A stretch of DNA of 49,951 nt from Candidatus Methanofastidiosia archaeon (lineage in GTDB: Archaea > Methanobacteriota_B > Thermococci > Methanofastidiosales > Methanofastidiosaceae): assembly GCA_012799835.1 (NCBI GenBank), contig JAAZKM010000052.1, positions 1-49,951 of the forward strand, read 5' to 3'. Shown piece by piece: positions 12,437 through 48,477 of the stretch. The translations under genes and the position numbers were made by a program. Below the pieces are notes generated by a model that saw only the letters and a program-made list of their open reading frames with translations, did no database searches and had not been told where the DNA came from. How positions within the stretch are numbered: the first letter of the stretch is position 1; the number at the start of each line of letters is the position of its first letter.

Positions 12437-13286
12437 GATCTTCAACTTTTTCTGATATTTCTTTTATCTCTTCAGTTTTCATTCCATAAAGCTTAATTGC
12501 CTCAATTACAAAACCATTTTCTTTTACTCTGTCGTATCTGGGACATTTAGTAAACAATGATTTTCCACTTTTAGGTCGTATTATCCGATTTAAACGTTCA
12601 AGTAATTTATTTGGATTTTCATATTTTACAAAGATAGATAACGATTTGGAGTCTCTATAAGGTATGTTAAGAGAGGATTGGTAAAAAATTTTTACTATGT
12701 CTCTTATTTCATTTAGCTTTGTATTTGAATTTTCAACTTCAGTGTAAAGCTTTTCATAATAGCTTGTAGGTAGGTGAGAAAATGATAGAACTTTTTCAGA
12801 TTCTTTAAGATTTATTTCTGTAGAAATTCCAACAAATCCGCCATACCCACACTCTAGAATTTTTGGACTTCCAGTTGAGCAATATATTATGTCTGCCCAT
12901 CCAAAGTCTTTATCAGGGAATGTTCCAGATATATCTTCAATTGATACAATCCCCATTCTATTTGTTTCTTGACATATTAATTTTGAGGGATTCGATCTCA
13001 TATATCCAGAAAGAGATGTAAATAAAAAAGCATCTATATCTTTATTAAATTTAGGAATTATGATCCCCTTTTCGGTAGGAAATTCGACGTACTTTTTTTT
13101 TAGAAGATTTGGTATTTCAATAAATCCTTTAAAACCACCCTGATCAGGTATTCCAATCTTAGAGAAATTGGAATCAAATAAGATGGAAAAAAGTCCAAAC
13201 GTAGCAGAGTTAACAAAAAATAATCTATAGTCTCGATTAAGAGACTGAGATATTCTTTTCTTTGTAGTTAGAATAATCTCCTCCAT
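12429..13286 (-). CDS. DegT/aminotransferase-like PLP-fold protein, compact
   Basis: The 285 residues look like a shortened fold-type I PLP enzyme. VSIEDISGTFPD resembles the cofactor-binding VIEDAAQA segment of DegT/DnrJ enzymes. Then WADIIYCSTGSPKIL followed by GYGGFVGIS resembles the stretch holding the Schiff-base lysine and the following glycine-rich strand, which would make the lysine of SPKIL the PLP ligand. Family enzymes are about 360-400 residues, so parts of the fold are missing, and activity is uncertain. The start ATG follows GGTGG by eight bases and lies within the last 50 bases of the WYL gene, so it belongs to the ramA operon. The substrate cannot be inferred. Confidence 0.55.
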   Translation of the reverse strand: MEEIILTTKKRISQSLNRDYRLFFVNSATFGLFSILFDSNFSKIGIPDQGGFKGFIEIPNLLKKKYVEFPTEKGIIIPKFNKDIDAFLFTSLSGYMRSNPSKLICQETNRMGIVSIEDISGTFPDKDFGWADIIYCSTGSPKILECGYGGFVGISTEINLKESEKVLSFSHLPTSYYEKLYTEVENSNTKLNEIRDIVKIFYQSSLNIPYRDSKSLSIFVKYENPNKLLERLNRIIRPKSGKSLFTKCPRYDRVKENGFVIEAIKLYGMKTEEIKEISEKVEDLI

Positions 13287-15282
13287 ATTTTTTCCACCAA
13301 TTTTTTACAGTAAAGTTATCGGGTCTTAAAAATTCGTTATTTTCTATCGAAATATCGGAGATGACGTCAATTCTTAGCGCTTTGATACATTTTTCTGCAG
13401 TATCATATCCCACCAGATATCTTTTTTCTGCAACAACGACCCCCAACGGATTAATCCTTGAAGTCCTAGATACTTTGTCGTCAAGATCAAAGTAAGACAA
13501 TAAAACAGATTTTCTTTTTTTCGATGCCTCAAGTAGATCTCTTGTAATATTTGGCCGAATATCTATACTTCTTTCAAATCCTTCTTCTCTAAAGAAATAT
13601 TCTGTATCTTCTTTCTTTAAACCAGTTAGGTATCCTTCTTTAATTGACTTAATTTCAGATTTTAAATCAATATTCTCAGTAGATTTCTCTAGAAACGATT
13701 CTTTCTTTTCATCATAGCCTTCGATATGTATTTGGATAAATATTCCATTCTTTTCTAAGATTTCCCTTATTTTAGGTATATTTTCTTCTTTAATTAAAAT
13801 AATATTTGGTTCAATTGATTGTTCAATATAACTACTTATCCTCTTGTTTATTTCTAAAAATAATGGAACGTCATTCACTACAATAAACGTTCCTTTGAAA
13901 GTCCTAACTTTGCCATATTTAGAAGCCCAGTCCCTCAGTTGGTATATGACATTTTGAGGTATATCGTTTGAGGAGTATTTTTTTAAAAAATAAATTATTT
14001 TATCAAGAGAAAATCCAGATTCAATCCCTTTCATTATAGTTTCCGAGGTTATTTGATACAAACTTACCATATCTGCTTTTTGTATATCCGCAAATCTATT
14101 TAAGTCAAAAAGTGCGATCTTATCAATTTCTTCTGACAGGACGGATATTTCAAAGTTTGGCGTCATAAAAAGAATCTTTTTCGGTTTTACTCCACAGCTC
14201 TTATCAAGATATATTGTGGGTTCTTTAGATGCTTTTCTTTCTGATGTTAAAAGCTCCTTACCGAATTCAGTAAGTGAAAAAGAAATCATCTTCCCCTCAA
14301 TAAATCCTCCGTCCACAATACCAAGCCATAATAAATAGTCAGAAATAACTTTTTCAAAGAATTTATCATCAAAATATATCCAACGATTTTCATCTTTTTC
14401 ATCAAATAACTTATTTTGTAATTTTTTAATGAAGGACTTAATGAAGATATTCTCCCCAACTTCGACCTTTTTTATGGCATCAAGAACGATCCTAATGTTA
14501 AGCTCATTTACCCTGCTTATGAAAATCTCCTTTCTTTTAAATCCTTCAATGCTTTCCAAACCAAAGAATATGTACTTAAAAAACAGTCTAATCAGATCTT
14601 CATCAGTAATTGGCAAAATCTCATTAATTTTATCTGTAAGAATGTATTGGTCGCTTGATATCTTGATTAATCCAAAATCAAGAGCAAGGCTTTCTATGAA
14701 TTGAGATCTGGCTTCGTTTTTAATGTGTAGTTTTTCTATGAATCGCTCTTGATCTTTTTTAGATATCTCTTTTTTTGCAGTAAGTTTTAACTCCTCCTTT
14801 GCAATAAATGATAAAAAAATTATTAAGTCGGATATAAGTAAATTTTTGTCTTTTCTAATGTGTAAATTATCAAAAGAGATATCTTCTGGCACCTTCTTGA
14901 AAATATTGATTAATTTTTCCCTTAAATTTGGATTGACAACATATGTTTTAATTATCCCCTCCACGCCTTCTAAAACCAACAGATCTGTTTCAAGAGTTTT
15001 AATAACTTCTTCAAATGTCCAGAAGCTGTATTTTTCTATAAAAATATTTTGGGCATCCTGCTGCTTTTTAACTCCTCCAGCCATAAGCAAGATGCCTAAA
15101 AATTCTTTTTCCTTGAGCGATAATGAATTAAAAACAGATTCAATAATATTTTCATTTTCCATAGCTATTTTTAGAGAGTCAATGATTTTCTCTCTAGGCG
15201 TCGTAATATCAATTCCCCAAACCTTAAGAGTGTTTTCTATCTGTTTACTAGACAAATCTTTTATTTTTTCCCAATCGTCCAA
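13237..15282 (-). CDS. Helicase-associated (Helicase_C_3-like) and WYL-domain protein
   Basis: About 681 residues. The N-terminal half is helical with repeated winged-helix-like segments. The middle (from about 360) has FMTPNFEISVLSEEID, then LYQITSETIMKGIESG and DIPQNVIYQLRDWASKYG, the pattern of the XPB/Ssl2-like helicase-associated domain. The C-terminal part (SYFDLDDKVSRTSRINPLG, then EKRYLVGYDTAEKCIKALRID) is WYL-like. No ATPase motifs are present. WYL proteins usually regulate transcription in response to a ligand or nucleic acid. I choose the TTG at 15282 because AGGTGAG lies just before it; TTGs at 15297 and 15318 are alternatives. That ribosome site contains the TGA ending the ramA tail frame, so the gene appears coupled to ramA. 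Confidence 0.7.
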   Translation of the reverse strand: MDDWEKIKDLSSKQIENTLKVWGIDITTPREKIIDSLKIAMENENIIESVFNSLSLKEKEFLGILLMAGGVKKQQDAQNIFIEKYSFWTFEEVIKTLETDLLVLEGVEGIIKTYVVNPNLREKLINIFKKVPEDISFDNLHIRKDKNLLISDLIIFLSFIAKEELKLTAKKEISKKDQERFIEKLHIKNEARSQFIESLALDFGLIKISSDQYILTDKINEILPITDEDLIRLFFKYIFFGLESIEGFKRKEIFISRVNELNIRIVLDAIKKVEVGENIFIKSFIKKLQNKLFDEKDENRWIYFDDKFFEKVISDYLLWLGIVDGGFIEGKMISFSLTEFGKELLTSERKASKEPTIYLDKSCGVKPKKILFMTPNFEISVLSEEIDKIALFDLNRFADIQKADMVSLYQITSETIMKGIESGFSLDKIIYFLKKYSSNDIPQNVIYQLRDWASKYGKVRTFKGTFIVVNDVPLFLEINKRISSYIEQSIEPNIILIKEENIPKIREILEKNGIFIQIHIEGYDEKKESFLEKSTENIDLKSEIKSIKEGYLTGLKKEDTEYFFREEGFERSIDIRPNITRDLLEASKKRKSVLLSYFDLDDKVSRTSRINPLGVVVAEKRYLVGYDTAEKCIKALRIDVISDISIENNEFLRPDNFTVKNWWKKYGGDYSNYKEKNISVS

Positions 15283-15286
15283 TAAC

Positions 15287-15487
15287 TCACCTATCAATTG
15301 ATTCTGTAAGCTTATCAAATTTAAATACTTTATATGGGCATGAAGATTGGCATCTTAAACAAGCTTCACCGTTACATCTTTCAGACAATATTCTTATTTT
15401 GAAATTCCCTTCTTTTAATGCTTCTACCTTTAAAGCTCTTTCGGGGCACACCCTTTCACACTTCCCACAACCCTGACAATTTTCAAA
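15287..15487 (-). pseudogene. Ferredoxin-like C-terminal tail of ramA, beyond an in-frame TAA
   Basis: Directly after the ramA TAA (15490-15488), the same frame stays open for 66 codons to TGA 15289-15287. It encodes FENCQGCGKCERVCPERALK, a classic C-x2-C-x2-C-x3-CP cluster motif, then a second set C-x4-C-x2-C-x3-CP (CNGEACLRCQSSCP). RamA proteins carry two [4Fe-4S] clusters in exactly this place, which the corrinoid-reducing electron passes through. This piece has no start codon of its own that would give both motifs, and its stop sits in the ribosome site of the next gene. It is therefore the natural end of ramA, separated by one nonsense codon. Confidence 0.8.
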
Positions 15488-16915
15488 TTATGCAACTAAT
15501 TCAACGCCAATATGATCAATTACCTTTAATTCTTGGCCTATATCTGGGATATCCCTTTTAACAATCTTATTGACCTCCAAATCTCCCTTTACAGAAGGTA
15601 AAGTCTGAATATTTTTTAAGACAAGCATTTCATTGTATTTTTCAAAAGACATTCCTTGCTCCCAATACGCAAGCTCTTGTACATATACGTCAGTAAATAT
15701 TTTTGATGTTGCAAACATAATATGTTTGCTTCTAATCTTATTTGCAAGTTTTTGTAATTCCTCTAATGTATAGTTTTCAACTAGAATATCGTAAGCTAAG
15801 AGTAGTGAAGTATTCCCAACTTGATACACTTTTTGTATTGTGGGTGGAATGAGTCCTATCTTTCTTGACTTTATAGCATCGACATAAGTACCAGATGCCC
15901 CACACATATACATAGTTTTAACGTCTTCTAGATTTATCCCTGCTTCTTGGGCTAGAGTAAGATGACCGGCTCTGATGGCGCCAATTGCCTTTCCAGCTTC
16001 TTTGAGGTCCTCTTCGGTGAAATAAATATTTTCGTCAAGCCGTAATCTTCTAGTTTTTGTATAGATGTAAGGAAGTTCAATTACCCCAGTCTCAAGGCCT
16101 GCATAGATTACAGATACTACCCCGGTACCAGTTATGCCTCTTACTTCAACATTTGATAATCTCTTTCCCCTAAAATCTTCCTTCCATAGATCTAAAACTC
16201 TAACGCTCTGCGGTAGCATATTATCATCAAGTACTAAGGTATGCCATCCAAATTCAAGGACAATGTCAGAAATTGCTCCTGGAGATGCAAGCATTCCACA
16301 AGATATCTCTTGACCTTCAAGTGCGGGCCCTGAAGCAGCCGAGCCAGTAAATATTTTATCCCCTACCTTCAATGCCATTTCTGCATTTGTTCCATAATCT
16401 GTAACCAAGGATATTTCCTTATTATCTAGAAAATTACTTTTCAGCATCATCGCAAGGGCATCTGCACCAATTTCGTGTTTTATTGCAGGAGGGATTAAAA
16501 TATCCGCGTTGATTTCTTTAATTCCTAAATCTTTTGAAGAAATCACCTTAGCATTTCTTGATTGAATTTTTATTTTATTGGCTTCAAGATATTTGGGATC
16601 TGCATAAGCTAAATCTTTGATACTTATACCTTCAAATAATGAGAGTTGAATAGGATTGCCGCAAATGGCAATCCTTTCAATAGTATCACGGTCTATTTTC
16701 ATTTGGTCTAAAATTCTTTCAAATGCATCAACCATTAGCTTATGTGCTATTTCTTCGCCGACCCTGATAGCAAAATTAAGATGATCCATTACATTAGCAC
16801 CAGGCAATGGGTGTCTTAATGTAATTGCAGTTCTCAATACTTTTTTAGTTTTCAAATCGACAAGTTGAACTCTAAATCCACTTGTGCCTATATCAAATGC
16901 AATACCCATTGGCAT
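15488..16915 (-). CDS. ramA: RamA-like corrinoid reductive activase, ASKHA domain (interrupted before Fe-S tail)
   Basis: ATP-dependent reductive activase that returns inactive Co(II) corrinoid methyl-carrier proteins to Co(I) for methylotrophic methanogenesis. The N-terminal ASKHA fold starts MGIAFDIGTSGFRVQLVD; TDYGTNAEMAL, GSAASGPALEG and CGASGTYVDA are further nucleotide and fold motifs (DUF4445-type). The frame stops at TAA after IDHIGVELVA, giving 475 residues; read through, it gives about 542, matching RamA's usual size of about 540. ATG 16915 is preferred to GTG 16924 because AGGTGAG precedes it. If the TAA is real and not suppressed, the product lacks both [4Fe-4S] clusters and would need another electron donor. 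The methyltransferases it would serve are not in the window. Confidence 0.82.
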   Translation of the reverse strand: MPMGIAFDIGTSGFRVQLVDLKTKKVLRTAITLRHPLPGANVMDHLNFAIRVGEEIAHKLMVDAFERILDQMKIDRDTIERIAICGNPIQLSLFEGISIKDLAYADPKYLEANKIKIQSRNAKVISSKDLGIKEINADILIPPAIKHEIGADALAMMLKSNFLDNKEISLVTDYGTNAEMALKVGDKIFTGSAASGPALEGQEISCGMLASPGAISDIVLEFGWHTLVLDDNMLPQSVRVLDLWKEDFRGKRLSNVEVRGITGTGVVSVIYAGLETGVIELPYIYTKTRRLRLDENIYFTEEDLKEAGKAIGAIRAGHLTLAQEAGINLEDVKTMYMCGASGTYVDAIKSRKIGLIPPTIQKVYQVGNTSLLLAYDILVENYTLEELQKLANKIRSKHIMFATSKIFTDVYVQELAYWEQGMSFEKYNEMLVLKNIQTLPSVKGDLEVNKIVKRDIPDIGQELKVIDHIGVELVA

Positions 16916-16943
16916 ATTACTCACCTGAATAATAATAATTCAA

Positions 16944-17240: not shown

Positions 17241-18680
17241 TTGGACAAAAAAGAAAGAATATATAAGACATTAAGCCAAATCGTAGGCGATGAAAAATGG
17301 GTTTCTAACAGTCCCGTTGATTGTTGGGCTTATTCCTACGATATGACATACAAGAGACCACAGATGCCAAATTATGTTGTTCTCCCAAAAACGCCTGAGG
17401 AAATTCAGTCAATTCTCAGACTTGCAAATGCAGAAAAGATGCCAGTTGTACCGTTTACAGCCGGTACAAACATTGGAGGTCTTTGCGTTCCAGAACAAGG
17501 CGGTATCTTGATGGATCTTAAGAGAATGGACGAAATTATCGAAATCAATGAAGAAGTAAGATTTGCTGTTATAGAGCCAGGTGTGAGCCAGGCTCAGTTT
17601 GCACAAGAACTTTTCAAGAGAGGATACAGATTTGGATGGCCAGTAGGTCCACCATCTGCTTCAGTATTAGCATGTGCAATACACCACGGAATTGGTGGAA
17701 TGAGTGGCAGATATGGGCTCAATAGTAACCATATTACCGGTATGGAAGTAGTAAGGCCAACTGGAGAAATATTAATGTGTGGATCTCCTGCAATTAGAAG
17801 AGATTCATGGCAGAGCTGTATGCCCCTTCCAAGATTTGACGGTCTTTTTACAGGCACCCTTGGAACAACAGGCGTTGTAACAAAGCTTGGAGTCTTTATC
17901 CCTCCAGTGCCTGATTATGTACACATAGGGACTTTTGCTGCAGAAAACTTAACTGATATGGAAATGTTCATGAGAACATTCAGTAAATATGAATACGCAG
18001 ACGACCTTACCGCAATCTCATGGTGGCTAAGCCAAGTACCAATTCCCTATCCTTATGTTGAAAAACCAAAAGGTGCTCCGGAATGGACTGGATACTGTAC
18101 CTTATACGCATTTACCGAGAAAGAGTTAGAGAATAAGGTAGATGTTTTCAACAAAGTAATAAAAGACCTAGGTAAAAAAGGCAACACCATTAAAGCTACA
18201 GATGTTCCCGAAGAATCAAAGAAAGGAAGAACTCAATTACCTTCTCAGATAGTAGGCTCAACAAAGAACTACTGTAAGATGGGTGGAGGAGGAATAGCTT
18301 GGCCCGGAACATTTACCCCTTCAAACAGATGGGTAGCTGTTTATAATTTGTGGAAAGAAATTTACACAAAGAAGGCTAAGATTGCATTATCACCATCAAC
18401 AAGAGTTACAATGTACCGTGGATGTCACTATGGTATGTTAAGGCTCATGACACCATTCCCAAGAGACAGACCTGAAGAAGAAGCAAACGCTGCATGGTGT
18501 ATCAGAGAAGCTGCAAAAGTTTTAATTGATGCTGGAGGTATCCCATATAAACCCCCAACAGACTTTGCAAGAGAAATTAACAAGAGAGCAGATCCAGGAT
18601 GGATAGACCTTATCTGTGATATTAAAGACATGCTTGATCCAAACGGAATCATGAATCCAGGTAAATGGGGCGTAAGGTGA
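17241..18680 (+). CDS. FAD-linked oxidase (GlcD/D-lactate dehydrogenase-like)
   Basis: FAD-binding oxidoreductase of the glycolate oxidase/D-lactate dehydrogenase type, 479 residues, probably oxidising a 2-hydroxy acid. The N-terminal PCMH-type FAD domain is clear: VVLPKTPEEIQ, VVPFTAGTNIGGLCVPEQGG, and GWPVGPPSASVLACAIHHGI with GGMSGRYG. The C-terminal cap domain ends with DPNGIMNPGKWG, the usual family ending. No iron-sulfur motif is present in this chain. TTG start, with AGGAGG seven bases upstream, the best ribosome site in the window. The HdrD-like gene follows, its ribosome site overlapping this stop, so the two probably form one enzyme. Base composition is less AT-rich than its neighbours, consistent with high expression. 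The substrate cannot be read from sequence. Confidence 0.85.
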   Translation: MDKKERIYKTLSQIVGDEKWVSNSPVDCWAYSYDMTYKRPQMPNYVVLPKTPEEIQSILRLANAEKMPVVPFTAGTNIGGLCVPEQGGILMDLKRMDEIIEINEEVRFAVIEPGVSQAQFAQELFKRGYRFGWPVGPPSASVLACAIHHGIGGMSGRYGLNSNHITGMEVVRPTGEILMCGSPAIRRDSWQSCMPLPRFDGLFTGTLGTTGVVTKLGVFIPPVPDYVHIGTFAAENLTDMEMFMRTFSKYEYADDLTAISWWLSQVPIPYPYVEKPKGAPEWTGYCTLYAFTEKELENKVDVFNKVIKDLGKKGNTIKATDVPEESKKGRTQLPSQIVGSTKNYCKMGGGGIAWPGTFTPSNRWVAVYNLWKEIYTKKAKIALSPSTRVTMYRGCHYGMLRLMTPFPRDRPEEEANAAWCIREAAKVLIDAGGIPYKPPTDFAREINKRADPGWIDLICDIKDMLDPNGIMNPGKWGVR

Positions 18681-18685
18681 TACAA

Positions 18686-19963
18686 ATGGCAGATAACTTC
18701 AAAGACCTTAAGTGGTATTCTCAGTTTTTTAGAAAATGCTCTAAATGTGGAACATGTAAGTCAGCATATTCTTACGGACCTCCACCAACAAATGCATCAA
18801 TATGTCCACAAGGAGATTACTTTAAACTTGACTCTTACTATGGGTCAAGAGCCAAGTCATTCCTTGGACAAGCAATTTTAGAAAACAGAGTCGATTTAAC
18901 AGATCCAGCTGTACAAGAAGATATGCAAAAAGCAGTTTTCTCATGTACGGTATGTGGTGGATGTCAGACACAATGTCAACTTGACTACAAACCATGGATA
19001 ATTGACTACATTGAAGAGATGAGACACAATTTAGTTAACAGAGGAATTGGTCCAACAAAAGCAGAAAAAATATATCAAGATAAGGTAATAAAGGACCACA
19101 ACCCATATGGAGAAACACACTCTTCAAGATTTAACTGGTTAAAGGATGTAAGAGACTTAAAGACAGACGGTAACACAGTTTACTTCGCAGGATGTACTGC
19201 ATCATATAGAAGAACTGAAATTGCCAAATCAACAGCTAGCGTTTTGACAAAACTTGGTGAAGACTGGGGAGTAATGGGAGAGAACGAATACTGCTGTGGT
19301 TCGCCACTTCTAAGAGCAGGTCTAAGAGAAGAGCCACAGAAACTTGCTGAACACAATGTTGATTACCTAAACGACCATGGATTTAAGACAATTGTTACTG
19401 CTTGTGCCGGATGTTACAAAGTTCTTGCAAAAGAATATGAAAAATGGTGGGGCTTAAAGCTTAAAGCAAAGGTCTTACACACAGCAGAATATCTTGAAGA
19501 AAAAATGAAAAAAGGTGAACTAAAGCTAAGCAATGTACCTGCAACAGTTACATACCATGATCCATGTCACATGGGACGACACATGAATCACTATGAAGTC
19601 GATATGGATGGAAAGAAGCAATGGAAGGGTTCATACATTCAAATCGATAAGCCAGGTCTTTATGAAACACCAAGAAATGTTCTTAAAGCCATACCAGGCA
19701 TACAATTTAAAGAAATGTACAGAAACAGAGACAATTCCTACTGCTGTGGTGCTGGTGGAGGTATCAAAGCTTCTTACCCAGATGTAGCTCTTGAGACTGC
19801 AAAAACTAGAATTAAAGAAGCAGAAGGCCTTGATAGCGTACAGAAAATGGTAACACCATGTCCATTTTGTGTTACAAATCTTGGTGACGCTTCAAGAGCA
19901 CTTGGTTCTAAAGTAGAAGTAGTTGACCTTATCCAATTAGTCGACCAAGCTCTAAAGAAATAA
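18686..19963 (+). CDS. HdrD-like iron-sulfur protein with two CCG domains
   Basis: Heterodisulfide-reductase-D/GlpC-like electron-transfer subunit, about 425 residues. Near the N-terminus are two [4Fe-4S] motifs: KCSKCGTC with a distant ICPQ, and SCTVCGGCQTQC. Two cysteine-rich CCG domains follow: FAGCTASY, YCCGSPLLR and CAGCYKVL in the first, then HDPCHMGRH, YCCGAGGGI and PCPFC in the second. The second is complete and could hold the noncubane cluster used for disulfide chemistry. ATG 18686 is used because GGTGAT (18676-18681) precedes it, overlapping the stop of the FAD subunit. With that subunit it would pass electrons from an organic substrate to a carrier; true HdrD uses CoM-S-S-CoB, but membrane HdrE is not in the window. 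Confidence 0.85.
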   Translation: MADNFKDLKWYSQFFRKCSKCGTCKSAYSYGPPPTNASICPQGDYFKLDSYYGSRAKSFLGQAILENRVDLTDPAVQEDMQKAVFSCTVCGGCQTQCQLDYKPWIIDYIEEMRHNLVNRGIGPTKAEKIYQDKVIKDHNPYGETHSSRFNWLKDVRDLKTDGNTVYFAGCTASYRRTEIAKSTASVLTKLGEDWGVMGENEYCCGSPLLRAGLREEPQKLAEHNVDYLNDHGFKTIVTACAGCYKVLAKEYEKWWGLKLKAKVLHTAEYLEEKMKKGELKLSNVPATVTYHDPCHMGRHMNHYEVDMDGKKQWKGSYIQIDKPGLYETPRNVLKAIPGIQFKEMYRNRDNSYCCGAGGGIKASYPDVALETAKTRIKEAEGLDSVQKMVTPCPFCVTNLGDASRALGSKVEVVDLIQLVDQALKK

Positions 19964-21909: not shown

Positions 21910-23214
21910 ATGAATAATATCTCAAAAACTCTGTTAGTAATATTCTTGCTTGTATCCACATTTTCAAACTTTAGCCCCACCTTGGGGCAGAGTGATGGGT
22001 ATGCAATTGAGATCTTACCTTCATTTTCTATAGCGACGCAAGAAGACATACCACGCATTATAGAGCTTGCATCAAAAAATAATGTTAATACCATCTATTT
22101 GCATGTAAAGAGAGGGACTGGAACAAATCCTTCACCAGGAGTAGTATTTTATAACAGCAAAATAGCACCCACATTCTATAATTTTGACGTACTCTCTGCA
22201 ACGATAGAAGAGGCTCATAAAAAAAGCATTAAAGTTTATGCAATAATTCCAGTATTTTATGATATCATCGCTGCTAATAAAGGCTATGCGTCAGTCGGAC
22301 CACAATCAGAAGGTTGGGTGTGCCCAAGAACAGGCTTTAGTTATGAAAAAAGTATAATTGATGAGATAATAAATGGATACAAAGTAGACGGTATAGTTTT
22401 AGAGTATTTTGGATATGCAAACAATCTGAATTGTCAATGTCCTGATTGTCTTAATGAATTTTCAAAAAGATATGGCGTGTCGGCTACAAGATTAAATTTA
22501 GAAATAGAAAAGCAGAATGATTCTGAGCTATGGATTAAATGGAATGTATTTAGATCGGAAGAACTTACTAGGTATCTAAATAAACTTTCACAAGATATCC
22601 GAACCAATAGAAAAATTAAATTGGGGATTATTATTCCGCCCACTACATATAGAGATTATTTTGAGAATACCGATTTTGGAATTGACGTAAGAAAAATAGG
22701 AAACTATGTAGACTTTATAATATTTAGGCGCCAAGGTTTACCGTTAGAGTATGTTTCAGATGCAACAAATGGCTACAGTCTTCAGTATGACGGAGACATA
22801 TATGTTACTGTTGAGAATAAGGACATAGGCCTTTTAAATTTAGTTTATTCAGGTGCCGATTATACTAAGGGGATTATCTATTTTCAAAGAGAGCCATGGA
22901 CAGCACAGAGTTTTTCAAGAATCAATAAATCAAGGGCGGAATCTACTAACATCTGGGCAGTTCGAGTTGATTCCAGAGAATATTTTAATCTTGATCTTGA
23001 TCAGCTTATTCCCATTTGGAAGAAATGTAATATTAACACAGTGATAATTAGTGCGGGGAGACCATATTGGATTAACTTTAGATGGCCGGGGCATGATAAG
23101 GAATATAGTAACATAGTCCAATTATCAAATGGCGATCCTTTAGAGAAAACGATAGATAAATTGAAACAAGAAGGATTTAAAGTTGTAGTTAGTTTTAGTT
23201 TGAATAGCCCTTAA
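21910..23214 (+). CDS. Secreted glycoside-hydrolase-like TIM-barrel protein, N-terminal part
   Basis: Starts with a signal peptide (MNNISKTLLVIFLLVSTFSN). A TIM barrel of the hypothetical-glycosidase type follows (about 40-330): ITLYLHVKRG-like NTIYLHVKRG, IKVYAIIPVFYD, YKVDGIVLEYFGY, RKIKLGIIIPP and DFIIFRRQG are successive strands. A second barrel begins at about 345 (IWAVRVDSREYF, INTVIISAGRPYW, FKVVVSFSLNSP) and is cut by TAA at 23212-23214. ATG 21910 follows GAGGTC by four bases. The frame continues unchanged past the stop to 24408. The substrate is unknown; possible roles are cell-envelope glycan processing or a non-catalytic surface protein. Confidence 0.75.
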   Translation: MNNISKTLLVIFLLVSTFSNFSPTLGQSDGYAIEILPSFSIATQEDIPRIIELASKNNVNTIYLHVKRGTGTNPSPGVVFYNSKIAPTFYNFDVLSATIEEAHKKSIKVYAIIPVFYDIIAANKGYASVGPQSEGWVCPRTGFSYEKSIIDEIINGYKVDGIVLEYFGYANNLNCQCPDCLNEFSKRYGVSATRLNLEIEKQNDSELWIKWNVFRSEELTRYLNKLSQDIRTNRKIKLGIIIPPTTYRDYFENTDFGIDVRKIGNYVDFIIFRRQGLPLEYVSDATNGYSLQYDGDIYVTVENKDIGLLNLVYSGADYTKGIIYFQREPWTAQSFSRINKSRAESTNIWAVRVDSREYFNLDLDQLIPIWKKCNINTVIISAGRPYWINFRWPGHDKEYSNIVQLSNGDPLEKTIDKLKQEGFKVVVSFSLNSP

Positions 23215-42109: not shown

Positions 42110-42133
42110 AAATAAAAAAATTATTTTTTATTT
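42110..42133. terminator. Bidirectional A/T hairpin between top6A and the DUF11 gene
   Basis: AAATAAAAAA and TTTTTTATTT form a perfect ten-base stem with an ATTA loop, giving a U-run on either strand. It lies between convergent stops and overlaps the DUF11 stop. Confidence 0.45.
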
Positions 42134-43072
42134 AAAAGATAGAACTTCTATCATTAGTTTTATTGCTTCAGCAATTGCTTCACATTTTTCTTTAGTTAAT
42201 CTTTGTGCAAGGCCGTAATTGCCTTTTGAGAATGCTTCATTAGCTTCTTTACATAGTCTTTCTGATTTTTCTAACAGTGTAAGTGCTTTGATATACCTTG
42301 GATCTCTGTCTAATCCTTTCCTTACTGTTTCTATTTTAAGCTCCTCAATTATGTCTTCAGGCATACAACATGCATTGTCTTCCTCGACATGAGTAATTTG
42401 TTTTGAAATCAATAACTTAGCTTCTCTGATTAGCTCTTGAGTGTAACATAAGTCACACCTCTTCATGTAACTCTTGGTGATTATTCTTAGAGTTTCTTTT
42501 GGATTTATTCCAGGGTGTTTTTGTATTTCAACCTGGTCGTCATTTGATACGGGATCTCCATTTGGAGGCTGCCCTTCAGTTGTGGCATAGTTGATGCTAT
42601 TAATCTCTTGGCCGTTAAACTTAGCTGAAAACTTAATTGTTTTACTTTCCCCAATAGCTAAAGGCCCAATATCGTTCCATTCGATTGTTGTCGTACCATC
42701 TGTATTTACTATGACTGAGTCTGGAATTATGGACGCCAAGTTAGCATATGTCAGCCCTTTAGGTAGTGTATCTGTAACAGTTACCGATTCTAGTATTACT
42801 TCTCCAGTATTTTTTATTATTAATGTGAATTCATTGTTAAATCCATTTTTACCCCAGGGAGGATCAACAGATTTTGTTATATTTATAGCTGGGCCTTTTA
42901 CACCAACAGTAGAAGTGTCCGAATCAGTAACGTCACCTATTTTTGATGTTCCAATTACCTCAGCTCTATTGATGAAAGTTCCAATCCTTCCTGCATCAAC
43001 AGTTGCTTGGAATTCAACTATTTTCGTATCTGTTGGATCCATTGGGCCTATATTGTTCCATGTTAAAACTTG
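42128..43072 (-). CDS. DUF11 surface protein, C-terminal part (separated by a one-base frameshift)
   Basis: Continues the DUF11 repeats of the next entry in another frame. Read from the C5 run at 43076-43072 it gives PQVLTWNNIGPMDPTDTKI, the usual end of a DUF11 unit, then one complete unit (INITKSVDPPWGKNGFNNEF, then SVTVTDTLPKGLTYA). A helical tail of about 120 residues follows, with CDLCYTQELIREAK (CxxC), a CC pair and many charged residues. No membrane helix or sorting motif is visible at the end, so how the protein is held at the cell surface is unclear; the helical tail may do it. The first ATG, at 43042, has no ribosome site. Joined with the N-terminal part, the protein has about 2116 residues. 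Confidence 0.7.
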   Translation of the reverse strand, partial: QVLTWNNIGPMDPTDTKIVEFQATVDAGRIGTFINRAEVIGTSKIGDVTDSDTSTVGVKGPAINITKSVDPPWGKNGFNNEFTLIIKNTGEVILESVTVTDTLPKGLTYANLASIIPDSVIVNTDGTTTIEWNDIGPLAIGESKTIKFSAKFNGQEINSINYATTEGQPPNGDPVSNDDQVEIQKHPGINPKETLRIITKSYMKRCDLCYTQELIREAKLLISKQITHVEEDNACCMPEDIIEELKIETVRKGLDRDPRYIKALTLLEKSERLCKEANEAFSKGNYGLAQRLTKEKCEAIAEAIKLMIEVLSFK

Positions 43073-46000
43073 GGGGATCCAGTTATTGAATCTGGTTCAT
43101 ATGGCAATCCGCCAACAGTACTAGATCCCGGCATGTATGTAAGTCCATCAGGTAAATAGTCATTTAACTTCACAGGATCTAACTTCATAGCCCCGGTATT
43201 TGTGATAGTAAGCCTAAAGTAGACTGTCCCCCCGGGAGATGGAACGTTAATATCAGTATTTAGGGTGACTTTTTGTAAATCTGTCCCCGGGGCTATTACA
43301 TTCCAATCGTCGGAATTTGGACCATATTGTCTTCTCCCTTCATTGCCACTAGGTAGAGACCAATACTCTGTGTTTGTAACTGTGTTTGTGAAGCTTCCCC
43401 CTTGCGGAGGGATTGTGGCATCATATTCTAAAGTAACTGAGTAATTTGGGGGTATTGAGAGATATTCCCACTGAATAATATCTCCAATTACCATAGTATT
43501 ATATGCAGTGGGGAAAGATGTAATTGATCCTCCCACCAATATTAGGCCTGAGGGAATCTTATCTTGGATTACTGCATCATATGCAGAGCTGTTCCCAGTA
43601 TTTCTCACAGTAATTGTGTAGTGCACATTTTCTCCAGGCAGCCCTTCATTTTTGTCACCATGCTTTTCAATAGTTAAAGTAGGTTCAATAATTCTGACAT
43701 CATCTAAATCGCTTATGTTGTACGGAGCTCCATCTTGGATAAAGCTAGTATTAGCATTGTTTACAAGTATAACGTCCCTAACATTATCTGGTAGAATATT
43801 CTTAATCCTTCCTGTAATTTTGATAAGTACATTATTGGGCCCAACAAAGTTCCTGTTAGGCGCCCCCAATGGAGTTCCAAGTTTCCAAGTAAGAACTTGT
43901 CCATTTTGGTTAAATTGTTGTATTGTTCCACCATAAGTATCAGTATATGTATGTGAAATGTATTCAATTCCATCAGGTAAATGATCAACTATTGTTGTAT
44001 TGGTGTAGTTTGATCCGACTCCCGAATATACAACTGCCAAATCAAATACAACTTCTTCACCTATTGTTGCTCTTTTCTTCTCAGATTCTTTAAACAGTCC
44101 TTGAATATTGATTATTCTTGCATCATCAGTTGCACTGCTGTATATACATCCATTGGAACATTCACCTTTTACCTCGACTCCATTTGTACCTGTGCCTGCA
44201 TCACCTTTTAGTTTAGCAGATAAAGTTGCAGACCATGTACCTCCTGATTGTGCGATTGGACCGGGTATATGCCAAGTTATAGTGTTACCTGAAACAATCG
44301 GAGTTTCTCCATTAGTTCCATTTCCTGCAACTATTGGTGTTTCCCAGTCAGCACTTAGTGTGTCAGTAACGATTACGTTGTACGCAGGTGTATTACCTGT
44401 ATTAGTTACTGTAATTGCCCAGCTTCCAATACCCCCAGGTGGAACAGGTTGTAATGCTGGAGTTTTAGAAACAGAAATAATAGGCCTCAATGGAGTTATA
44501 GTTGGACTAGTATTACTTGCATTTAGGTCATTACCGCATTTATTCTGATAATCAATTCTTACATTGTTTGTTCCAGGGGTTACAGTATCACAGCTTAATC
44601 CATCGTTTTTTACTTTAAATTGAATGACAGTATTTGTTCCGCTAGCATTCATATCGCCTAGTGACCATATGGGCTTTGAAAGATCTGCAGGGGGATTCGG
44701 AGTTGGATCTGGACCAGTAATCATTGAATCAAAAATAAATCCTGGCGGTAGATCAGATGTTAAGATTACATTGTATGCAGTTGGATATCCTATATTATTT
44801 CTAACATTAATTGTAATGGTTCCATCGCAAGTAGTAAAGGTACCGATATTTTGGGATATGGAAAAGTTAGGCCTAGTCATTAAAGAACGGCTACTTGACG
44901 GAATGAAATTAAATCTGCAGTATGGATTATCGCAACCATACCTAACATAAGCAATATTAGTGGTGACACCTACACAACCCTCTTCCTTTACAGTTCCCCA
45001 TATATAATAAGTAGCAGCATTGCTACCTGATACATTTGACAATGTGCCGTGCTTCCATGGATCTGCTGATGTTCCGGAACCTGAAGGTGTGGTGCCTGTG
45101 TTTGGATATTGGCTTGTACTTATACCTCCGAAATTCATATTAGAAGGCAAGACATCATAAAATTCAACGTTTGTTGCTGCAGCACTACCGTTATTTGAGA
45201 TAATAAGTCTCCATTCTACAATATCCCCTGGTTCTGCAGAGACGCTGCTGGCAAATAAAGATCCTGTGGTGTGATTTCTTCCATGTTTAGATATTGATAA
45301 CGCCGGAGTTCTACTTATAATTTGGGAAGCTACCTCCGGAGATGATTTAACATCATTACACGGAGATTTATACGTAGCTTGGCTAATAATATTTCCAGAA
45401 GACGGCATGTCACAATTTGAGCGAATTTTAAAAGTTATTGCAATTTCACTTGAAGGGGCTAGGTCTTCCAATCCGGGAATTTGAGCTTTTGTCCATCTGA
45501 GAGGATTATTACTTGGATTTTCTGGATCAGGGCTTGTTCCACTTACATAAGTAATTCCAGTTGGGAGGGAAGCAGTGACATTGACATCATAAACGTGTGT
45601 CAGCTCTGTATTTTTAACAATAACCGTTACCTCTTCTTCGCTACACATACTTATTGATTCAGGCACATTATTGGCTGTAATGGCTTCTGAAGGAGGGATA
45701 CGGACTTCTGAATTGGCCTCCTTAATTTCTTGACAGTCTTCTCCTAGGCATCCTGCACTTGTAGATGCATTGTTTGTTAGATTTGTACATGCGCCGATGT
45801 TTGCAGTTAAAAGAATTTCAGTCCTATCTCCGGCATCAATTTTAGGGATAAACCATGTTGCCCCATTAATCGGATTTCCATTCCTGTCTTGATCAATTTT
45901 GACTTGGGAATATGTTCCAGTGGATGAGTTATACGAAAGTCCAGATCCAAGTTTATCTTCAAGCCAGACATTATAGCTTCCTCCACTGCCTGCATTTGTA

Positions 46001-48477
46001 AGACATAATCTCCAAGTTACTTCATCTGTTGTGGCCCATAACAATTCTGGCACTTTCATTAAGCATAAATTTCCAGATAGAATTAATCTAGGTGTTAAGG
46101 AAGTACTACCTCTACAAATATTGTCGGGCGCGTCATTATTACACTTATCATTCCATACGACGTTTGCAGTCATTTGTCCATTTGAATCACATCTTTTAGT
46201 AACATTTAGATCAATACTTGCCGAAGTATTATTAACAAAAAAGTCCCCATACCTCCATTCATAGCCGTTTGGGCCTGATATTTGATTAGGCGAACCGCCG
46301 TTTATAGTAATGTTATTAACGTGATAATTATTAGTCGGGAAGGATACATTAACATTATATGCACCTCCAATTGAGTTCCTATTGATATTAAGTGTAACTA
46401 TATAGGTTCCGCATCTATCAATTATTGTAGGAAGATTACTTAAGTTAACATTTACCTCAGCACCGTTTACTGTAACAAATACTCCGTTTCTGATCTGCAT
46501 GGAATTATCGTAACAATCCCCAACACCTGAGGATTTGCCAGTATTTAATATTGACCAGTCAAAAAATGTGTAAGAGCTTTCGCATATTGGTTGTGATAGT
46601 TTCTGATTTGATAGGTTATATTCAATAGTGATTTCCTTGTTTCTAACAGTTGTTGTATTTAAATCTAAGGAGCAAGTATTCAATATGAGATTTTGTAAAA
46701 CTGTATCTGAAAAATTAACATCTAGGTATGATGAAACAAGTGGTGTGTAATCAACACTGCAGGATCCAATAGTAATTTTGACAGGACTTACAAGAACTTG
46801 ATTGTTTGTTAACTCTTCTCGGAATTTTAAAGAGGAAATATTCACATCATCCCAGAACTCATCATCTGGGAACTGATAGGTGTTTTTATATTCAATAGGT
46901 GTACACTTCTCAAAATTGTAATTTGAAGAAGCAGTTTTTGTAGAGGTAACTGTTTCTGAGCATTGTAAGTAAGTTGATTGTGAGGATGAAGCTGTTCTAA
47001 CACATCCACAACAGTCTGTAATGGTAGCATTTACAGTGTTAATAGCAGTTGTATAGCAGTAGTTGCAATTGCCATAATCTGGCGATTGAAGAACAACAGT
47101 CGTGTTTAGTCCTGTTGCAGGGTCAACGTCCCATGTTATTTTATTTCCACTAACAGCGCCGCCTCCATCATTAACTATAGAAAATCCAACAGGTATTGTG
47201 TCAACTACCAAAATGTTTGAAGTTGTGCTGCTGTTACAATTAAGTGGTCCAGAGTAAGAAGCCACTATATTGTAAGATATAGTCCCTCCTAAATACATTG
47301 AACCTGGGGCACCTGTCTTGGATACTGAGAGTGAGGGGATACCTGTGACAAAATAATTTCCTATTTTAACAGGAGGTAAAAAATTAGTTCCACAATAAAG
47401 ATAATAAGGTTCAAAGATTACCTCTCCTGAAGGCAGATCGCTACACCAGTTACCTGTTGGGGTGAGGTCGAAAGTTAGATTAGTAGTTCCATTTGGAACA
47501 TTACCTAAAATAAATTTACCTCCACTATAAGACGCGCCAGAAGGAGAAGTTATATTGGTAATCGTCAATGGCCCAAAGTCTGCCGATAAATTAAAGTCGT
47601 AAGCAGTACCGCCAGTATTTGTTATGGGTATGGTGAAATTATTTTCAGTTCCGCAGTAAGTAAGATCAAAGGATGGAAGAGTGTAATCTATTTTTGGGGG
47701 GTTTGGTTGAAAAGCAATACTTGCAATAGTTTCCTGTGTTTCACATTCCCCTCCTCCGTCACATCCCCATGTGACTTTAGCTATGTTAGTTAAATTATTA
47801 CATTTAATAACTTTAGCTTTTAGTTCAATTTTTACCTCATCATTGGGATTCATGAGGGAAAGTGCAGGAATCTCATTGGATGTCCACTTATATGTTCCAG
47901 GCGCGTCTAAAGCGCCTTCAGGTGATGAGGAAATATATTGTAATCCTGACCCAAGAGTGTCTGTGATTATTACATTTTTAATCGGACCAAGACCGCTACT
48001 CTTTATAGTTATGGTCCACGAAACATCTTCTTCTAAAGTTGCATTTTGTGTCGATGGTGTTTTTTCTATTGTAACTGCACCTTTGTACAAAGTTATTGGT
48101 TTTGTAGCAGAAAGTGTATCTTGGGAGTTATTATAATCATAAGTCCCATTAACTGAAATATTTCCACCTTCAACATCACAGAACGTATTAACATGAATTT
48201 TTATCTTGTTTGTAAGCCCTGGCCCTAAAGAAAGGACGTTATAAGTTAAAGGATCTGTAGTGTTAAATCCTACTGGCAAAGTGACTACATAATTAATATT
48301 TGTCACACTTTGATTAACTGAATTATTCCTAATAGTTACATTGTAATCGTAAGGGTAGCACATATAGACTGTTGAGTTTCCATCAATACTAACATCAATA
48401 ATCTGTGCAGAAACGAATAATAAAGCGAAATTCATTAAAATAGCTAAAATAATTAAAGTTATCGATAATCTTCTCAT
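43063..48477 (-). CDS. Giant secreted DUF11-repeat surface protein, N-terminal part
   Basis: About 1804 residues beginning with a signal peptide (LSITLIILAILMNFALLFVSAQ). The rest is a chain of roughly 130-residue immunoglobulin-like DUF11 units. Each has a pattern like ISVSKTPALQPVPPGGIGSW, then NTGNTPAYNVIVTDTLSADW and a closing strand. Many cysteines occur, and many N-x-S/T sites would allow glycosylation. It is probably an adhesin or cell-envelope fibre. ATG 48477 has TTTTTATATAG about 26 bases upstream and no ribosome site, so it looks leaderless. The frame ends TGSPKF-TAA right after a C5 run at 43076-43072; one more C would join it to the next part. Early units are more cysteine-rich and degenerate than the last ones. 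Confidence 0.85.
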   Translation of the reverse strand: MRRLSITLIILAILMNFALLFVSAQIIDVSIDGNSTVYMCYPYDYNVTIRNNSVNQSVTNINYVVTLPVGFNTTDPLTYNVLSLGPGLTNKIKIHVNTFCDVEGGNISVNGTYDYNNSQDTLSATKPITLYKGAVTIEKTPSTQNATLEEDVSWTITIKSSGLGPIKNVIITDTLGSGLQYISSSPEGALDAPGTYKWTSNEIPALSLMNPNDEVKIELKAKVIKCNNLTNIAKVTWGCDGGGECETQETIASIAFQPNPPKIDYTLPSFDLTYCGTENNFTIPITNTGGTAYDFNLSADFGPLTITNITSPSGASYSGGKFILGNVPNGTTNLTFDLTPTGNWCSDLPSGEVIFEPYYLYCGTNFLPPVKIGNYFVTGIPSLSVSKTGAPGSMYLGGTISYNIVASYSGPLNCNSSTTSNILVVDTIPVGFSIVNDGGGAVSGNKITWDVDPATGLNTTVVLQSPDYGNCNYCYTTAINTVNATITDCCGCVRTASSSQSTYLQCSETVTSTKTASSNYNFEKCTPIEYKNTYQFPDDEFWDDVNISSLKFREELTNNQVLVSPVKITIGSCSVDYTPLVSSYLDVNFSDTVLQNLILNTCSLDLNTTTVRNKEITIEYNLSNQKLSQPICESSYTFFDWSILNTGKSSGVGDCYDNSMQIRNGVFVTVNGAEVNVNLSNLPTIIDRCGTYIVTLNINRNSIGGAYNVNVSFPTNNYHVNNITINGGSPNQISGPNGYEWRYGDFFVNNTSASIDLNVTKRCDSNGQMTANVVWNDKCNNDAPDNICRGSTSLTPRLILSGNLCLMKVPELLWATTDEVTWRLCLTNAGSGGSYNVWLEDKLGSGLSYNSSTGTYSQVKIDQDRNGNPINGATWFIPKIDAGDRTEILLTANIGACTNLTNNASTSAGCLGEDCQEIKEANSEVRIPPSEAITANNVPESISMCSEEEVTVIVKNTELTHVYDVNVTASLPTGITYVSGTSPDPENPSNNPLRWTKAQIPGLEDLAPSSEIAITFKIRSNCDMPSSGNIISQATYKSPCNDVKSSPEVASQIISRTPALSISKHGRNHTTGSLFASSVSAEPGDIVEWRLIISNNGSAAATNVEFYDVLPSNMNFGGISTSQYPNTGTTPSGSGTSADPWKHGTLSNVSGSNAATYYIWGTVKEEGCVGVTTNIAYVRYGCDNPYCRFNFIPSSSRSLMTRPNFSISQNIGTFTTCDGTITINVRNNIGYPTAYNVILTSDLPPGFIFDSMITGPDPTPNPPADLSKPIWSLGDMNASGTNTVIQFKVKNDGLSCDTVTPGTNNVRIDYQNKCGNDLNASNTSPTITPLRPIISVSKTPALQPVPPGGIGSWAITVTNTGNTPAYNVIVTDTLSADWETPIVAGNGTNGETPIVSGNTITWHIPGPIAQSGGTWSATLSAKLKGDAGTGTNGVEVKGECSNGCIYSSATDDARIINIQGLFKESEKKRATIGEEVVFDLAVVYSGVGSNYTNTTIVDHLPDGIEYISHTYTDTYGGTIQQFNQNGQVLTWKLGTPLGAPNRNFVGPNNVLIKITGRIKNILPDNVRDVILVNNANTSFIQDGAPYNISDLDDVRIIEPTLTIEKHGDKNEGLPGENVHYTITVRNTGNSSAYDAVIQDKIPSGLILVGGSITSFPTAYNTMVIGDIIQWEYLSIPPNYSVTLEYDATIPPQGGSFTNTVTNTEYWSLPSGNEGRRQYGPNSDDWNVIAPGTDLQKVTLNTDINVPSPGGTVYFRLTITNTGAMKLDPVKLNDYLPDGLTYMPGSSTVGGLPYEPDSITGSPKF

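Follow-up and report, generated by a model that had tools for sequence, protein, structure and literature searches.

The TAA codon that splits the corrinoid protein activase gene ramA in the deposited sequence is most probably a consensus error: a G>T change with a guanine-oxidation-like signature in what, judged from sequence comparison, would be an intact and ordinary gene. Four observations support this explanation: the gene is intact in relatives, its tail is under purifying selection, the other clean stops of the assembly belong to the G>T/C>A class, and one of these interrupts the single-copy aIF5B.

Source genome and the window

The window is the whole 49,951-nucleotide stretch of contig JAAZKM010000052.1 that was analysed. 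It comes from a Methanofastidiosum MAG (1.94 Mb, 296 contigs, 93.5% complete, 3.8% contaminated), whose closest relatives are Candidatus Methanofastidiosum MAGs. RamA was searched for with stops read through in ten genomes of the genus, the window's own included, and was present in nine; no ramA was found in the congener G006, which is 68% complete.

Layout and identity of ramA

The original prediction described ramA as split by one in-frame TAA, and the minus-strand frame was confirmed: it starts at GTG 16924 (ATG 16915) and reaches the TAA after 478 codons. Behind the stop, the same frame stays open for 66 codons as predicted. Reading through the TAA from the ATG gives 542 positions, the stop counted, in agreement with the predicted RamA size of about 542 residues. 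The TGA that closes the tail was also found within AGGTGAG, just ahead of an in-frame TTG of the next gene, which codes for a helicase-C/WYL-like protein (Table 1).

Two details were less exact than predicted. The TAA had been placed exactly before the tail; it does stand at the domain border, but at a Glu/Gln position four residues ahead of the first tail cysteine. Both four-cysteine motifs of the tail are present, CQGCGKCERVCP with the spacing C-x2-C-x2-C-x3-C and CNGEACLRCQSSCP with C-x4-C-x2-C-x3-C, but the latter spacing is not textbook and so not "perfect", though all relatives share it with little or no change.

Table 1. Coordinates of ramA, its neighbours and other genes discussed in the text (window positions unless a contig is named).
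Feature	Position	Strand	Basis or remark
ramA body, RACo-type ATPase domains (PF17651 middle, PF14574 C-terminal ASKHA)	15491..16924	-	TIGR04270, 674 bits without tail
In-frame TAA in ramA (GAA>TAA)	15488..15490	-	Clean internal stop; GAA/CAA/CAG in 8/8 congeneric genomes covering the site
66-codon tail, two four-cysteine [4Fe-4S] motifs, normal RamA C-terminus	15290..15487	-	Profile match and congener alignment
Genuine ramA stop, TGA inside AGGTGAG	15287..15289	-	Sequence and congeners
Next gene, helicase-C/WYL-like protein, probable TTG start 15282	13237..15282	-	Reading frame and domain matches
GlcD-like FAD protein and CCG-domain iron-sulfur protein (TfrB/HdrB-like)	17241-19963	+	Divergent from adjoining ramA
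Second window gene, 837 codons	21895-24408	+	Clean internal stop GAA>TAA at 23212..23214; GAA in nearest relative
aIF5B	Contig C191, 5046-6806 (L258)		TCA>TAA at codon 298 of 587, vs nearest relative
307-aa protein	Contig C59, 6033-6953 (L271)		GGA>TGA at codon 127, vs nearest genome
AcsV-like paralogue	Contig C218, 4619-5863
Large repeat-rich surface protein, split	43063-48477 and 42128-43096	-	One-base deletion near 43070, within ~43063-43096
Isomerase-like gene at contig end	Contig C102, 16517-17449 (L165)		TGA vs AGA in relative
Extra HhH-GPD DNA glycosylase	Contig C101, 8429-9049 (L272)		In-frame TAA

The product was compared with TIGR04270 (NCBIfam RamA, methylamine methyltransferase corrinoid protein reductive activase; curated cut-off 500 bits). 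In the profile search the read-through product scored 744 bits over positions 2-532 of 534, and the part up to the TAA alone still exceeded the cut-off. The tail by itself matched the last 56 of these positions (477-532; 5.9e-12). Because the tail matches the end of the model and the read-through product matches nearly all of it, the tail is the true RamA C-terminus and not a chance frame, as the original prediction had held. Both ATPase domains, the RACo middle and the C-terminal ASKHA domain, were found in the product. The two-cluster C-terminal domain is in frame and conserved, but lies 3' of the TAA in the deposited sequence.

Once the stop is read through, the gene has the same full domain order and length as Methanosarcina-type RamA, and the single TAA is the only difference. 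RACo/AcsV-type corrinoid activases (NF040756) have the ASKHA ATPase domains in common with this RamA. RACo and AcsV carry a [2Fe-2S] domain at the N-terminus, in contrast with the dicluster tail at the C-terminus of RamA. RamA is an iron-sulfur protein whose reductive activation of corrinoid proteins precedes methyl transfer (PMC2933860).

Beside ramA in the window stands the GlcD-like and TfrB/HdrB-like gene pair, with its order conserved in the nearest relative. The pair is a possible electron route.

The stop site and the tail in relatives

Among the nine genus genomes with RamA, only the window's copy has a stop codon in the gene. The eight congeners covering the site have GAA (five), CAA (two) or CAG (one); the nearest relative, 95% identical, has GAA, which a single G-to-T change on the coding strand turns into TAA. 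A comparison of this codon in related genomes had been proposed with the original prediction, and it gave a sense codon and an intact tail with both cluster motifs in all eight.

Changes on the window's branch were identified against the nearest relative and polarised by the other congeners. In the tail they comprise seven silent changes and one conservative replacement (E to D), and in the body 68 silent and 15 replacement changes. By this measure the tail has been under constraint as coding sequence, and it was kept until now. Therefore, the stop is either very recent, or spurious, or read through as a rule. Odd residues at invariant sites are not unusually many in the window's ramA (four, compared with 1-19 in congeners), a point against the error explanation.

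We also inspected the tail in 80 RamA-like loci from other genomes. It was full in 76, and none of the 80 ended cleanly at the tail start. Of the four exceptions, L110 is cut by the edge of its contig, in L093 unrelated sequence takes over partway through the tail, L104 lacks one tail cysteine, and L064 has a mid-gene TAG followed by an intact tail. A naturally tailless RamA was thus rejected. The in-frame TAG of L064 (~2886-2888, ...EGQSI*CGML...) is in the RamA of a Methanomassiliicoccaceae MAG (UBA72), and members of that order use pyrrolysine; this TAG could be a Pyl codon, a mutation or an error.

Internal stops elsewhere in the assembly

Internal stops were surveyed against the nearest relative in ~494 kb of the window's genome, about a quarter of it, covering 334 genes and ~98,600 codons. 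Four clean internal stops were found, including that of ramA (Table 1); further flagged stops were set aside because of their position, which was close to a gene start, at the end of a contig or ahead of the start codon. The 837-codon gene in the window had no NCBIfam match. The gene on contig C191 was identified as aIF5B by TIGR00491 (746 bits). It is intact in eight congeners, and no second full copy was found in a search of the genome. Interruption of aIF5B at this codon should be lethal, so the gene in the living cell almost certainly lacks this stop. Since the same kind of stop occurs in other genes, including the essential aIF5B, the ramA stop is most likely a wrong base rather than new biology.

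In the reverse comparison, no comparably clean case was found among the internal stops of the nearest relative. Its stops fell in frames that were short or of low identity, or at points of frame change, and it carries frameshifts of its own.

Other irregularities were observed in the two genomes. The gene of a large repeat-rich surface protein in the window is split at a C run, and the nearest relative is frameshifted elsewhere in the same gene. The TGA in the isomerase-like gene, within AAKIGRTVAEAL, is not a G>T change. The contig with the interrupted extra HhH-GPD glycosylase also has RHS-repeat-like fragments, and the sampled sequence of the nearest relative showed no counterpart of this glycosylase.

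Substitution signature

All four clean stops are G>T/C>A changes. From codon usage and the silent spectrum of the nearest relative, this class is expected to make up ~5% of nonsense changes (p ~1e-5 for four of four); under the branch's own spectrum the expected share is 22% (p 0.002). Similar disruptions, in an essential gene and in a biased substitution class, are what a consensus error in ramA would lead one to expect elsewhere in the assembly.

The bias extends beyond stops. Among 9,615 codons in which changes were polarised by an outgroup, those of the G>T/C>A class numbered 29 of 723 on the branch of the window's genome and 5 of 534 on that of the nearest relative (p 0.0007). Replacement and stop changes together stood against silent changes at 125 vs 598 and 57 vs 477, respectively (p 0.001). 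This branch-wide excess of G>T/C>A and of replacements would be expected of an assembly that contains some wrong bases. DNA shearing can oxidise guanine, and C:G>A:T changes are a documented signature of this (PMC5521083; PMC8748355). The G>T/C>A changes on this branch were 13 silent, 14 replacement and 2 stop, where random errors would give about 1:8:1.4. The silent share is thus above that expectation, and a real mutational shift may account for some of the excess.

Alternative explanations

The main competitor, clearly less probable than a consensus error, is a real and very recent nonsense mutation by which the strain, or the assembled sub-population, lost the Fe-S tail of RamA. The ATPase would then be left unable to pass the electron, and decay would be starting. 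The stop is clean and the remainder of the gene sound, the raised G>T/C>A at silent sites would fit a real mutational shift, and ramA might be dispensable, as it was not found in one incomplete congener. However, the few changes in the tail require any break to be very recent, and a like stop is found in aIF5B, a gene that the cell should be unable to lose. The search for oxidised-guanine repair genes turned up no broken one either, although for AGOG it is uninformative, since it gave no match in any genome and its controls were silent too. A real mutator arising from lost oxidised-guanine repair was considered and rejected: the HhH-GPD glycosylases common to the congeners are intact, and the interrupted one is the extra copy on contig C101.

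Production of RamA in two forms, with and without the Fe-S tail, by read-through of the TAA is very unlikely. Such read-through would account for the in-frame, selected tail and would rescue aIF5B and the TAA-interrupted 837-codon gene as well. A stop that is regularly read through would be expected to be conserved, but this one occurs in no relative. Among the 39 tRNAs found in the 93.5% complete genome, none had a UUA, CUA or UCA anticodon, that is, no suppressor for TAA, TAG or TGA was found. TAA is also the commonest real terminator, closing 202 of the 360 complete genes that are 150 aa or longer. Moreover, the four stops include a TGA, and the residues replaced differ (Glu, Glu, Gly and Ser). 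TAA suppression thus finds no support in the tRNA set, the unconserved stop and the mixture of TAA and TGA.

It is equally improbable that the TAA is real and that a RamA without its Fe-S domain receives electrons from a partner such as the AcsV-like paralogue or the GlcD/HdrD-like pair next to it, or that the TAA is read through at a low level. AcsV-like matches are also found in congeners, in most of the genus, so the paralogue is not a compensation for the loss of RamA here. As suppression is without support, the cluster-free activase with another electron donor that the original prediction had raised is not indicated.

The least credible alternative is that the frame yields two proteins, an activase without clusters and a small ferredoxin with its own start: the stop does stand at the domain border, but no in-frame start lies between it and the first cysteines, the first one available (GTG 15451) falls within cluster 1 and loses three of its four cysteines, no congener has such an arrangement, and none of the 80 related loci inspected ends cleanly ahead of the tail. 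A restart that keeps cluster 1 was rejected for want of a suitable in-frame start.

The original prediction had offered three options, namely two forms by suppression, a recently broken gene or a wrong base. The last is best supported, a recent break keeps some plausibility for ramA alone, and suppression has no support.

Implications

The TAA would be a wrong base in the MAG consensus, G read as T on the coding strand, and would belong to a group of spurious G>T/C>A substitutions by which other genes, too, acquired stops. Its cause would be technical, for example guanine oxidation together with low coverage. In-frame stops in this assembly, above all those of the G>T/C>A class, should not be taken as pseudogenes or recoding without checking the reads. 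If real, the ramA stop would mean a split or cluster-free corrinoid activase, or TAA recoding in an archaeon.

Under a consensus error, the organism would carry an ordinary intact ramA, coding for a RACo-type ATPase that ends in a two-cluster ferredoxin domain. Its product would presumably use ATP and an electron relayed by the clusters to bring methyltransferase corrinoid proteins from Co(II) to Co(I). The substrate served by RamA in Methanofastidiosum may be a methylated compound other than methylamine.
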